Shown here piece after piece: positions 547-8,699 of a stretch of DNA of 12,478 nt (positions within the stretch are counted from its first letter, which is position 1; each line of letters begins with the position of its first letter). Source of the stretch: Deltaproteobacteria bacterium (GTDB lineage Bacteria; Desulfobacterota; Syntrophia; Syntrophales; JAAYKM01); NCBI GenBank assembly GCA_019136935.1, contig JAGVTI010000023.1, positions 1-12,478 of the forward strand. Direction: 5' to 3'. The notes below the pieces were generated by a model. It ran no database searches. It had not been told where the DNA came from and worked only from the letters and a program-made list of their open reading frames with translations. The position numbers and the translations under genes are program-made.

Positions 547-1800
547 ATGAAGACGAAAACTGCATGGTTTACCGCTCTGCTCCTTTTCCTGGTCTTTTCT
601 TCCTCTTCGACCGTCGCCGTCGACCAAAGCGGTTGCCTGACCTGCCACACAAACGAGAAAATCATAAAAATGCTCTATAAACCTCCCGCTACAGGCCCCT
701 CCGAAGGGGAAGGATGAGCGGGAGCACCTCCACCGGTTCGGTCGGAAGAAATGTACAAAGGTTATGTCATCGACAAGACCCTTCTTGACGGGGACCCCCA
801 TTTCAGCAGGGGCTGCCAATCCTGCCACAAGGGTAATGCGAAGGGTACGACCCGTGAAGAGGCCCACAGGAGCCTTGTAAAAAGGCCCTCCGACAACCTG
901 AAGACCTGCGCCATGTGCCACCGGAAGATCGTCGATACGTATGGAAAATCTCTGCATTATACGACAATCGGACAACGGCAGGGGGTCATGAAGCGTTTTT
1001 CGGAAACAGAATTGAAAGCGTTCGATGAAAAGGTTTTTCAGCAGTCATGCCGGAGTTGCCATGCCTCCTGCGGTGATTGCCATGTCCGGGGAGCTGCTGT
1101 CGGCGGCATCAGCATCGGCCTGATCAAGGGGCATAAATTCGTCAAAAAAGACGAGGGTAAAACCTGTGCTTTCTGCCATGGAGGAAGAGTTTATCCCGAA
1201 TACACGGGGGAATATGGCGGCAGGCCGGATGTCCATTACCAGAAGGGCATGCTGTGCATGGACTGCCACAAGAAATCCGATATGCACGGCGACGGGAACG
1301 CTTACCTCTCCAAGCAGGATGTGAAAGACCGGCCCGCCTGCACGAACTGTCATACGAAACTGGGACAGGAAGCCAGGCTGACCGTACGGACCGCGCACAC
1401 CAGACACCGGGGAAAAGTGACCTGCTACGGTTGCCACGCCTCCGCCGAATACCGGAACTGTTACGGTTGCCATCTGGGCACCGGCGCCACCGCCAAACCC
1501 GGTTTCATCCTCGGTCTGAACCCCCGGGACAGGAAAACGCTGACAACCCTGCGGCTGATTCCGACAGTCAGGGACAGTTTTGAAAAAGCGGGCGTGACGA
1601 TGTCGAATTTCGACAGCCTTCCCAACTACTGGGACACGCCCGTCCATAATATCCGGAAGCGGACGGACAGGACCCGCTCCTGCGACGCCTGCCATACGGG
1701 CAAGGACGGCTTTCTGACAAAAGAGGTGCTTGTGGAACAAGGTTCCAAGGCAAATGACGGTTTAATTTACAACATTAACCCCATTCCCATCAATCCTTAG
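547..1800 (+). CDS. Exported eleven-heme cytochrome c with a predicted selenocysteine (TGA codon 57)
   Basis: A 417-residue protein if the in-frame TGA at 715-717 is read as Sec. Residues 1-24 form a signal peptide (MKTK, a hydrophobic core, cleavage probably after TVA), so it acts outside the cytoplasm, where c-type haem is attached. Eleven CxxCH motifs start at residues 30, 90, 121, 168, 175, 207, 237, 265, 293, 305 and 379; those at 168 and 175 are nearly fused (CRSCHASCGDCH). U57 lies between haems 1 and 2 in SEGEG-U-AGAPPPV. Read as a stop, the TGA would leave a one-haem stub of 56 residues and a ten-haem remainder without a signal peptide, which makes no biological sense. The ATG follows AGAGG by 5 bases; GTG at 544 is an alternative. 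The role is electron transfer, perhaps reduction of a sulfur or selenium compound, judged from the adjoining rhodanese. A rhodanese beside a multiheme cytochrome recalls the ext clusters of Geobacter (from memory). The alternative is a recent nonsense mutation. Confidence 0.82.
715..745 (+). promoter_or_regulatory. In-frame TGA (Sec codon) plus SECIS-like hairpin in the cytochrome gene
   Basis: TGA at 715-717 is in frame with the upstream signal-peptide segment and the downstream haem segment. A hairpin follows: ACCG (732-735), loop GUU (736-738), CGGU (739-742), continued below a C-C mismatch by C730-G744 and U729-G745. The loop region reads GGUUC and lies 18-22 bases after the TGA, close to the GGUCU apical loop of the E. 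coli fdhF SECIS at nearly the same distance. A competing small hairpin, GGAG (721-724) with CUCC (728-731), lies just before it. This is manual folding only. Confidence 0.6.
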
Positions 1801-1804: not shown

Positions 1805-1809
1805 CCATG

Positions 1810-2745
1810 ATGAAAAAAGCGAAGTTACTCTTGACGGCGGTTGTTTTCATGTTCCTGTTGCCCATGGCGGTTCTTGCGCAGACCTTTTCACCCGTTGTTT
1901 CCACAGAGGATCTGTCCGTCGGCCTGACCAATCCCGATCTGGTGATCGTGGATATACGGAAGGTGGAAGAGTACAAGGCCGGGCACATTCCCGGCGCCGT
2001 GAATGTGTTTTACGGTACCTGGGCGGTCAAGGCCGGCGACAACGACAACCAGTTACCGGCGGATGACGACCTAGCGGACACCCTGGGTTCCGCGGGAATC
2101 AAGCCGGACTCGACGGTTGTCGTTTATGGGAAAACCGATACCCCTCCCGACCTGGTCAACGTGACACGCGTTGCCTGGACCCTGAAATATGCCGGCGTGC
2201 AGAAGGTCTCCGTCCTGGATGGCGGATTTGAAAAGTGGGCCGCTTTTGAAAAACGTCCCGTATCCACCGATACCACCGTGCCGAAAGCCGCTTCGTACCA
2301 GGGCAAGTTCAACAAGAACATTGTGGCCAGTAAAGACTATGTCAAGGCCAGCATGGGCGGTAAGGGCCAGGTCCTGATCGTCGACGTGCGGGAACCGGAT
2401 TTTTATAAAGGGATTCAGAAGCTCCCCTTCATCGCCAAGGCGGGCCGCATCGCCGGAGCCGTCAATCTGCCGACATCCCAGCTTTTTGAAAAATATCCCG
2501 CATCCGGTGAAAATGCGGGCAGTTGCTGTACGATCTACAAGGGGAAAGAGATTTTGAAAGGAATCGCAACCCCGGTGGTCGGAACCGACCCGACCCGGGA
2601 AATCATCGTCTACTGTGATACGGGTAAGTTCGCCACCGGCTGGTGGTTTGTCCTGAGCGAGGTCCTCGGTTACAAGAATGTCAAGAATTATGATGGATCG
2701 ACCCAGGAATGGATGCGGGACCAGAACGGACCGACGCTCCCGTAG
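1810..2745 (+). CDS. Secreted tandem-rhodanese sulfurtransferase
   Basis: A 311-residue protein. A signal peptide spans residues 1-23 (KKAKLLLTAVVFMFLLPMAVLA), so it is periplasmic or surface-located; there is no lipobox. Two rhodanese domains follow. Domain 1 (about 28-150) keeps the fold signatures VDIRKVEEYKAGHIPGAVN and VLDGGFEKW but has Gly107 where the catalytic Cys would be (VVVYG). Domain 2 (about 170-305) has VDVREPDFY, AGRIAGAVNLP and the active-site loop C269-DTGKFA. This layout, an inactive first and an active second domain, is usual in thiosulfate and mercaptopyruvate sulfurtransferases. A pair of adjacent Cys (239-240) lies between conserved blocks of domain 2 and might add redox chemistry. 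Rhodaneses carry sulfur as a Cys persulfide, and some handle selenium. Being coupled to the Sec-cytochrome, it probably delivers or accepts sulfur or selenium in the same pathway; the substrate cannot be read from sequence. Confidence 0.88.
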   Translation: MKKAKLLLTAVVFMFLLPMAVLAQTFSPVVSTEDLSVGLTNPDLVIVDIRKVEEYKAGHIPGAVNVFYGTWAVKAGDNDNQLPADDDLADTLGSAGIKPDSTVVVYGKTDTPPDLVNVTRVAWTLKYAGVQKVSVLDGGFEKWAAFEKRPVSTDTTVPKAASYQGKFNKNIVASKDYVKASMGGKGQVLIVDVREPDFYKGIQKLPFIAKAGRIAGAVNLPTSQLFEKYPASGENAGSCCTIYKGKEILKGIATPVVGTDPTREIIVYCDTGKFATGWWFVLSEVLGYKNVKNYDGSTQEWMRDQNGPTLP

Positions 2746-2857: not shown

Positions 2858-3385
2858 CTAAAGCCCCTTCTTTTCAAACCACCGGAAAAGACCAAGTCCC
2901 GCCACAATGAAGAGGACGATGACGATCCAATGATTGATCCCCAAAATCCCGGGGATGGTGATTTTCCCGAAATCTCCCCAGGTCAGAACGGTTGCCTTGA
3001 GAAGGGGATACGACTCGGCAAACACGGCCGCCCCGACCAGCATTCCCAAGACACCCCAAAGGGCGTCCCAGCGCCCTTCGCCGAGGGCGCCCAGCTGCGT
3101 TCCGGGGCAATATCCCAACAATCCCCAGCCCAGGCCGAAAATCAATCCGCCCAGGATGTTTCCGCCGAGTATCGTCGGTTTGATGGACAGTTTGACCATG
3201 CCCAGGTCGTATAAAAGATAAACGCCGACCATGGCGACCAGAACCGTGCTCAGCATGAATTTCACGATCGTCATGTCCATAAGGCGTAACGCCCCGAGTT
3301 GCTTGTCGTACCGGATCACCCTCGCCTTCTGGAGAAGAAATCCGAAGATGATCCCCGTCACCGCACCGTAGACGAGTTCGTTCAT
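2858..3385 (-). CDS. YeeE/YedE-family transporter, second half (Cys form)
   Basis: A 175-residue integral membrane protein with about five hydrophobic segments (roughly 4-19, 41-60, 72-90, 109-125, 152-168). The motif GWGLLGYCPGTQLGALGEG around Cys93 marks the YeeE/YedE (DUF395, sulfur transport) family, whose members move thiosulfate or related sulfur species by way of conserved pore Cys residues; related proteins have been tied to selenium. Full-length members have about 350 residues, so this is a half-size form that should pair with the gene just upstream. Its ATG (3385-3383) overlaps the TGA stop of that gene (3384-3382) as ATGA, which implies coupled translation and joint assembly. It is the last gene of the minus-strand set before the hairpin at 2780-2821. 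The family is clear; the transported compound is not. Confidence 0.87.
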   Translation of the reverse strand: MNELVYGAVTGIIFGFLLQKARVIRYDKQLGALRLMDMTIVKFMLSTVLVAMVGVYLLYDLGMVKLSIKPTILGGNILGGLIFGLGWGLLGYCPGTQLGALGEGRWDALWGVLGMLVGAAVFAESYPLLKATVLTWGDFGKITIPGILGINHWIVIVLFIVAGLGLFRWFEKKGL

Positions 3386-3909
3386 GACTTCTCACCTCCC
3401 CTGTAAAGCGCCATGGCGACAATGACCCCACCGATGAAGAAACAGATCAATGCGATATACCCGCTGACGGCTAACTGAAGCGACCCGCTCAGTCCATGAC
3501 CGCTCGGTCACCCGTCCGCCAGGCGGGCGCCGTACATGGCGACGGCACCGCCCACGAAGGCGGCCAATGCCCTCTTGGCCCGGCCCGGCCCGAAGCGCTT
3601 CTCCCACATGGGCGGTACGGCCTGCATCTTGAAGGTATTGGAAGTGGTGGATGCAACGAGGGCTCCGAAGAAGATCCCGACAACAAACACGAACTGCCAG
3701 TCGATTTTCGGCGCTTCCTTCATGAAGTAAGGCATTTTCGCCACCCGCTCGGCATCGAAGACCCGTTCGATGAAACCGGCGGAGCGCACGAAGGTTGTGG
3801 ACGCTCCCACATATTTGCCGGTAAACCAGACGGAAAGCACGATAAGCAAACCCGTCAGGGCTCCGGCGAGATACGGGCTCCAACCTTTTTTCTCCTGCAT
3901 TTCTCCCAT
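3382..3909 (-). CDS. YeeE/YedE-family transporter, first half, with a predicted selenocysteine (TGA codon 134)
   Basis: A 175-residue membrane protein if the in-frame TGA at 3510-3508 is read as Sec. About four hydrophobic segments lie at roughly 11-30, 72-88, 115-130 and 144-167. The motif is GARLADG-U134-PSGHGLSG; YeeE/YedE proteins typically have 'GCxxGHGLSG' here, with a conserved Cys at the position of the TGA. The 41 codons after it encode the motif tail and the last membrane helix, ending at the TGA that overlaps the next start. The ATG at 3909-3907 has AAGGAGGAA 4-5 bases upstream and is preferred to the longer frame opening at 3975, whose extra residues are very basic and lack a ribosome site. 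In thiosulfate transporters of this family the motif Cys is thought to relay substrate, so Sec here would sit on the transport path. A nonsense mutation is the alternative, but it would have to hit exactly the key Cys codon. Confidence 0.87.
3482..3510 (-). promoter_or_regulatory. In-frame TGA (Sec codon) plus possible SECIS structures in the YeeE gene
   Basis: On the mRNA (minus) strand TGA is at 3510-3508. Two mutually exclusive hairpins are possible. One is CGGUC (3502-3498), loop AUG, GACUG (3494-3490), which is 5 pairs with one G-U but only 11-13 bases after the TGA. The other is GACU (3494-3491), loop GAGCG (3490-3486), GGUC (3485-3482), whose G-rich loop is 18-22 bases after the TGA, where a bacterial SECIS loop is expected. 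I cannot decide between them by eye. The structural evidence is weaker here than the motif evidence. Confidence 0.45.
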
Positions 3910-3993
3910 TCGTTCCTCCTTTCTGTGTTTGCGTTTCCAAAAACCTGCAGAGGCAATTCTTTTGCCGGACACCATTCAAAGTCTTTGCAAACT

Positions 3994-8132: not shown

Positions 8133-8699
8133 ATGTCAATCAACTGGATCACGTCATTCGAGAAAGCGTTGGAAAAGGCAAAAAAAGAGGACAAACTGGT
8201 CTTTCTCGATTTCTTCAACCCCAACTGAATCGGCTGCAAAAGAATGGACGCGGTCGCGTACCCAGAACCTGCAGTCATCGAGTTCGTCAACACGAATCTC
8301 ATCCCGCTCCGGATTCCCGCCGTCGATCACGACCTGGCGGTCGAGTACCGCATCAAATGGACGCCGTCCCTGTTGATTCTCGACGAAAAAGGCACGGAGC
8401 ACTATCGTACCCTCGGCTTCTTCTGGCCCCAGGAACTGATCCCCTCCCTGCTCCTGGGCATGGGGAAGGCCTATTTCGACAAACCGGACCGGGTCAAGGC
8501 GGCGTCATGCTTCGGTCGCATCATCGAGGAATACCCGAAGAGCTTCCAGACACCGGAAGCCATCTACATGAAGGGTGTCTCGGATTATATCGCGACCAAG
8601 AACGCGGCCAACTTGATCGGCATCTACGACCGGTTGTCTGCCGAAGACCCCGACAGCCAGTGGGCCATGCGGGCAAATCCCTACAGCTTTCTGAAATGA
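8133..8699 (+). CDS. Thioredoxin-like selenoprotein (U-x-x-C motif, TGA codon 32) with a TPR-like C-terminus
   Basis: A 188-residue protein when the in-frame TGA at 8226-8228 is read as Sec. The ATG at 8133 is preceded by an excellent AGAAAGGAGG (8116-8125), while the next in-frame ATG (8244, after the TGA) has none and would cut off the redox site. Residues about 20-105 are a thioredoxin fold: LVFLDFFNPN-U32-IGC35-KRMD matches the '[W/N]-C-x-x-C-K-x-M-D' site of thioredoxin-like proteins with the first Cys replaced by Sec, and the cis-Pro loop is WTPSLLIL. There is no signal peptide, so it is cytoplasmic. Residues about 110-185 are helical and TPR-like (KAASCFGRIIEEYPKS, 'APEAIYMKGVSDY'-type pattern). 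I recall Geobacter-like bacteria carrying relatives with Cys or Sec here. It probably reduces disulfides or peroxides or handles selenium; partners are unknown. It has its own promoter and terminator, so it is a single-gene unit. Confidence 0.9.
8226..8256 (+). promoter_or_regulatory. In-frame TGA (Sec codon) plus SECIS-like hairpin in the thioredoxin-like gene
   Basis: TGA (8226-8228) is followed two bases later by a 7-pair stem, CGGCUGC (8231-8237) with GCGGUCG (8250-8256), including two G-U pairs, closing a 12-base loop (8238-8249). The loop carries GG at 8246-8247, 18-19 bases after the TGA, in the range expected for the SelB contact bases of a bacterial SECIS. The stem also lies in coding sequence, so conservation in relatives is needed to prove it. 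Confidence 0.6.

Follow-up and report, generated by a model that had tools for sequence, protein, structure and literature searches.

Predicted selenocysteine at the first relay position of a split YeeE/YedE family transporter and its exchange with cysteine among relatives

Introduction

Redox catalysis is the presumed role of many selenoproteins described so far. The YeeE/YedE family of transporters (PF04143) has been credited with a selenoprotein, exemplified by WP_012471001.1, which is tabulated in PMC9312934 and in the 2026 review PMC13188914. The latter gives its motif as GUxSG, and the table entry in the former gives none. Several other transport proteins predicted to contain selenocysteine (Sec) are also named in PMC13188914, and the rarity of a Sec-containing transporter was therefore overstated in the preliminary description of the locus studied here. 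Like the Sec-containing protein reported below, WP_012471001.1 belongs to the Pfam family and has one Sec in a G-U-x-S-G motif, but its table entry gives neither a sequence nor any account of a partner gene, a SECIS or a place in the pore. The main texts of PMC2398784 and PMC5029168, cited by the reviews for this selenoprotein, do not name the family under the names looked for, and no experimental study of Sec in the family was found in the non-subscription literature searched. The YeeE/YedE selenoprotein is thus already catalogued, and what is new in this work is evidence on the SECIS, the gene pairing and the position in the pore.

In the YeeE/TsuA thiosulfate transporter of S. thermophila (6LEO, 6LEP, 8J4C, 8K1R), C293, C91 and C22 are the first, second and third cysteines of a row perpendicular to the membrane, spaced 8.6 and 6.7 angstrom apart, along which thiosulfate is relayed toward YeeD (PMC11073785). 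Being first in the relay order given there, C293 would be the outermost YeeE cysteine. Split forms of such transporters are also described. The short proteins PmpA and PmpB match the C293 and C91 halves of YeeE (PMC11582611), and YedE1E2 of C. pinatubonensis (Cupriavidus) imports zero-valent sulfur, for which both proteins and both conserved Cys residues are required (PMC10812762). According to the same source, the fused YedE3 did not import zero-valent sulfur as YedE1E2 does.

Results

The gene pair

The window, that is, the whole 12,478-nucleotide stretch of DNA analysed, includes two adjacent genes on the minus strand (Table 1). With TGA read as Sec, the frame running from 3909 to 3382 encodes 175 residues, in which U134 lies in the context LADGUPSGHGLSG and is followed by 41 codons and a stop TGA at 3384-3382. 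Translation thus bore out the preliminary description, which had placed the TGA at the Cys of a conserved motif, with 41 codons after it and an ATGA overlap with the partner gene. Ribosome-binding-like sequences lie upstream of both starts, AAGGAGG for the Sec half and GGGGAGG for the partner.

Table 1. Features of the transporter gene pair in the window.
Feature	Position	Strand	Basis or remark
Sec half of split YeeE/YedE (Sulf_transp) transporter, 175 aa, predicted Sec134	3382..3909	-	Translation with TGA as U; PF04143 match; scan of 395 genomes
Predicted Sec codon TGA (U134)	3508..3510	-	Aligned to Cys293 of S. thermophila YeeE/TsuA
Partner half, 175 residues	2858..3385	-	PF04143; DUF6691; phmmer to 6LEO; pairing across loci
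Partner Cys93	3107..3109	-	Aligned to Cys91 of YeeE/TsuA
ATGA stop/start overlap joining Sec half and partner	3382..3385	-	
AAGGAGG, ribosome-binding-like, for Sec half	3915..3921	-	
SECIS-like hairpin, nine contiguous pairs in the window copy, GGU in loop	3473..3494	-	16-37 bases past the first base of the TGA

The Sec half matched the C-terminal part of the PF04143 (Sulf_transp) profile with 85.8 bits and the partner its N-terminal part with 55.2 bits (cut-off 27), and the partner also matched DUF6691 above the cut-off (33.7 bits). Scores against the curated full-length YeeE/TsuA models were 48.1 and 48.7 bits (cut-off 400), and 34.4 and 27.2 bits (cut-off 645). No Pfam match to the TusA/YeeD family was obtained among the 10 larger window proteins scanned, and the CPxP motif was found at four places in the six frames of the window, all of them in short or overlapping frames.

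In its sequence features, the gene pair looks like a split importer of the PmpAB/YedE1E2 type, which likewise comes as a pair of neighbouring half-genes, each contributing a single conserved relay residue. However, the proteins of those systems have ~130 residues each, with four membrane helices, and Cys as the conserved residue, whereas the window halves have 175 residues each and one of them has the predicted Sec.

Correspondence to the relay cysteines of YeeE/TsuA

U134 was aligned to Cys293 of S. thermophila YeeE/TsuA, though at distant similarity (at best 31.7 bits with phmmer and 36.8 when a 60-homolog profile was used), which upholds the earlier view that the motif Cys is a relay Cys of the thiosulfate transporter and aligns it with the first of the relay described in PMC11073785. 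Cys93 of the partner was aligned by phmmer to Cys91 (6LEO), and all 106 pairs have Cys at this position. For the partner residue aligned to C22, the third relay cysteine, the same 106 pairs show L, I, T or A and never Cys. The invariance of Cys93 and the consistent absence of Cys at the C22 position suggest a two-residue relay, Sec and then Cys, in the split transporter. The halves are accordingly homologous to those of YeeE/TsuA, but the latter is one chain that carries three relay cysteines and is partnered by YeeD, and the window has two chains and no counterpart of C22. Since AlphaFold, given 60 sequences, modelled the Sec half poorly (mean pLDDT 61, pTM 0.34, residues 132-140 below 50), the placement of U134 in the pore is taken from the alignment.

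Residue 134 in relatives

Of 395 genomes scanned across the phylum, 127 gave a match. Ninety loci from 85 of these were opened, together with 24 from further genome contigs, 22 of which could be aligned (L064 and L065 fell below the score limit and were dropped). The resulting sample comprised 112 loci with 114 genes, or 108 non-identical genes after removal of six copies arising from identical records in two collections. The 42 matching genomes outside the sample mostly rank low in the list, with weaker or partial matches, and include two, G286 and G215, with a TGA.

At the position aligned to residue 134, 56 of the 114 genes have U and the other 58 have C (51 U and 57 C when non-identical genes are counted), which supports the proposed replacement of the motif Cys by Sec. 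Within the 395-genome sample, U was found in 40 of the 90 loci, from 39 genomes. An additional in-frame TGA inside the aligned stretch occurred only in L104 and L125, at the last residues; over slightly different alignment ranges, an extra stop appears in a few further matches, such as those of G177 and G320. The genus-mate of the source organism (G398, 87% identical) shares the TGA, and no match was obtained in the third genome of the genus, which is 75% complete.

The relatives were also inspected for decay past the TGA. In all 56 Sec genes, 36-47 codons separate the TGA from the next stop, and the sequence there is conserved. When the window gene was compared as reference with 38 Sec genes of at least 60% identity, the difference at codon position 2 fell from 0.22 ahead of the TGA to 0.098 past it, and that at position 3 was 0.568 and 0.558, respectively. 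From these values the region past the TGA is judged to be coding and constrained. Among the best 120 of 3849 database proteins, 114 have Cys at the position and six end before it; this is expected, given that gene callers stop at TGA. Reading of the TGA at 3510-3508 as Sec is thus well supported by these comparisons of sequence and by those that follow.

The SECIS-like hairpin

The region past the TGA was compared in 107 different nucleotide stretches, 50 from Sec and 57 from Cys forms. At least five contiguous stem pairs were present in 48 of the 50 Sec stretches (the exceptions being L031 and L067) versus three of the 57 Cys stretches (L028, L029 and L056), and GGU in the loop in 48 of 50 (all but L031 and L094) versus five of 57. 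The mean folding energy of the 24-mer was -10.0 kcal/mol in Sec forms versus -4.6 kcal/mol in Cys forms, and 36 of the 50 Sec hairpins but only eight of the 57 Cys ones ranked in the top 5% for stability among synonymous recodings. The signal is clear only in the 24-mer: when the full 48 bases past the TGA were set against synonymous recoding it was weak (mean z -0.57 for Sec and -0.06 for Cys). Two layouts of the hairpin were seen, with a short GGUUC-type loop or a GGUCUG loop, and one stem pair occurs both as C-G and as U-A. The Cys forms L028 and L056 retain both the stem and the GGU loop, as would be expected of recent Sec-to-Cys changes.

Searching the window against Rfam with a threshold of E<=5 yielded no SECIS family. 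Rfam SECIS_1 (RF00031) found nothing in the source genome and nothing in 14 controls; because the controls were equally blank, its silence in the source genome is uninformative.

Sec machinery

The preliminary description made its reading depend on a Sec system in the genome, and one is present. In the source genome, which is 72.7% complete, SelB (357 bits), tRNA-Sec (76.8), SelD (387) and SelA (592) all scored above their cut-offs. The selD gene itself (G000:C341:320-1240, minus strand) carries one in-frame TGA. SelB was detected at E<=1e-55 in 360 of the 395 genomes of the phylum and in 37 of the 39 genomes with a Sec form. Its presence is hence supportive but, being common throughout the phylum, not discriminating. 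The two remaining Sec-form genomes, G266 and G251, lack a SelB match at this threshold, yet have SelA, SelD and tRNA-Sec above cut-off, and G251 has a partial SelB match of 178 bits. A genome with a Cys form, G034 (97% complete), gave no SelA match, and its SelB, SelD and tRNA-Sec were below the cut-offs, tRNA-Sec narrowly so (45.7 versus 47 bits).

Distribution of Sec and Cys forms and gene neighbourhood

A quick tree was made from 145 sequences (48 Sec and 97 Cys), with three short Sec rows omitted and with the first 40 full-length proteins among the best 120 database matches added. Sec and Cys forms are intermixed on it, with a minimum of 23 changes, at least eight of which are forced by supported branches, and the best database match, 93% identical, has Cys. 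Given this mixing and the Cys of the best match, Sec probably tunes a sulfur function and has no separate selenium function. As about half of the opened genes use Cys, selenium appears to be helpful and not essential.

The partner gene was found downstream on the same strand, within 900 bases, in all 106 non-identical loci, mostly at a spacing of tens of bases that varies among Sec loci. When eight window proteins were used as queries, this partner was again detected in 106 of 106; the rhodanese, SdpI and DUF4139 proteins of the window were found only in the window's own locus (L012), and the four others in no locus. No general neighbour other than the partner emerged among the loci, although neighbours at a distance are invisible in part of the sample because 31 of the 112 loci are shorter than 4 kb. 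Groups that do recur, named from a Pfam search with one member of each, are a metallo-beta-lactamase/rhodanese protein (17 loci, four Sec and 13 Cys), a di-haem cytochrome c peroxidase (seven loci, all Sec), a sulfate permease (six loci) and a pyridine nucleotide-disulphide oxidoreductase (five loci, all Sec). Two loci, L073 and L085, each have a Sec pair and a second, Cys-type pair (GCTSGHGISG) ~3-5 kb away.

Other candidate Sec genes and a rhodanese in the window

The rhodanese and a cytochrome c gene of the window are no conserved neighbours of the transporter pair. The rhodanese has two domains, is encoded at 1807-2745 (plus strand) convergently with the transporter genes, and has a signal-like N-terminus by eye. 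It resembles ExtH of selenite/tellurite reduction operons only remotely, at 66.7 bits against a cut-off of 200.

The cytochrome c gene (547-1800, plus strand) encodes 11 CxxCH motifs and has an in-frame TGA at 715-717 (U57), in the sequence EGUAG, which comes after the first of the haem motifs. All 10 opened loci, the window's own included, have U at the aligned residue, and in most of them the hairpin past U57 looks SECIS-like by eye. Relatives were found in 64 of 149 genomes of the order. As no NCBIfam cytochrome matched above cut-off, this may be an undescribed selenoprotein family; a single literature search found nothing on point. Against this, the product matches PF13435 above cut-off, and a Sec-containing cytochrome c family protein under PF13435, WP_013164579.1, is listed in PMC9312934.

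A thioredoxin-like protein encoded at 8133-8699 (plus strand) has a TGA at 8226-8228 (U32) in the sequence PNUIGC, which forms a UxxC motif. The position is U in 12 of 12 opened loci, again including the window's own, and 61 of 297 genomes were matched. The protein matches PF13098, under which a Sec thiol:disulfide interchange protein with UxxC is listed in a review, and it is hence probably of a known kind.

Discussion

Taken together, the two adjacent genes would each encode one half of a small sulfur importer of the inner membrane, and the halves presumably assemble with each other. SelB, together with the SECIS hairpin just past the UGA, would insert Sec at residue 134 of the first half, in place of the first relay cysteine and presumably nearest the outside. 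Sec134 would probably be the first to meet a sulfane-sulfur donor (polysulfide, persulfide or thiosulfate), and the sulfur would then be handed inward to Cys93 of the partner. The chemistry would be as in the Cys forms, with selenium speeding the step or making it more reversible than a thiol would. For this reading as a whole, a split importer with Sec inserted by SECIS and SelB at the entry position and with sulfane sulfur relayed to Cys93, the probability is put at roughly 0.6. We infer the direction, the substrate and the type of relay, covalent or by hydrogen bonds. The substrate is most likely sulfane sulfur or thiosulfate, and would be imported; polysulfide is a plausible candidate. More tentatively, the chalcogen relay could be covalent and begin at Sec134, which would trap an incoming sulfane sulfur as Se-S and transfer it to Cys93.

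The preliminary description had also suggested that Sec could select for selenium. In the corresponding rival reading, the Sec would be the mark of a selenium pore, carrying selenide, selenite or further forms of the element. The partner does show distant similarity to TIGR04112 (YedE putative selenium transporter), proteins of that type are almost confined to genomes with SelD and are split into two neighbouring genes in archaea (PMC5322559), and the phylum is rich in Sec systems, as judged from SelB. However, the similarity of 41.1 bits is far under the cut-off of 200, the Sec half gave no match to TIGR04112 at E<=10, and some of the recurrent neighbours are of sulfur type, namely the metallo-beta-lactamase/rhodanese protein and the pyridine nucleotide-disulphide oxidoreductase. 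The intermixing of Sec and Cys on the tree, the Cys in the 93%-identical best match and the Cys form in G034, a single genome in which SelA was not matched and the other Sec components were below cut-off, also tell against selection for selenium, and a selenium transporter is considered unlikely.

A regulatory role would be different again. Without selenium, translation would end at codon 134 and the ATGA coupling would then lower the yield of the partner, so that the transporter would be formed only when selenium is available. The UGA does lie 41 codons ahead of the coupled start, and five public products of 133 residues (P0040, P0047, P0063, P0085 and P0089) end just before the TGA, although these are gene calls and not observed proteins. 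Such a switch is nevertheless rather improbable, as the partner has a ribosome-binding-like site of its own and the spacing of the halves differs among Sec loci; moreover, the retention of Sec or Cys only at the relay position points to chemistry.

Sec134 might instead form a selenenyl-sulfide with a nearby Cys, for example C156, and so act as a redox or persulfide sensor that gates or reports and takes no step in transport. Cys156 is found in 42 of the 51 Sec forms and in 30 of the 57 Cys forms, but it is absent from 36 of the 108 homologs, and uptake by the split relative depends on the conserved Cys in both halves (PMC10812762); a sensor is accordingly held to be very unlikely. A premature stop, pseudogene or sequencing error, the reading to which a plain list of open reading frames and some public gene calls would lead since they end the frame at the TGA, is rejected, because the TGA is shared by 56 opened genes, including that of the genus-mate, and is followed by a SECIS-like hairpin and by codons that are constrained, the frame being conserved and not decayed.

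With the sulfur importer as the preferred reading, the findings bear on the family in several ways. Gene callers can cut YeeE/YedE selenoproteins at residue 133, as the five public entries show. The YeeE/YedE selenoprotein, which in the reviews consulted amounts to a table row and a list mention, is now accompanied by evidence on its SECIS, its pairing and the position of its Sec. Sec occurs only at the first relay position and the second is always Cys in the opened pairs, and, given the repeated swaps at the first position, nature itself offers a way to compare Sec with Cys in transport. If the relay is indeed covalent, sulfur would cross the membrane by group transfer and not as a free ion, and the repeated natural switches between Sec and Cys would be a ready-made experiment on what selenium gives a transporter.
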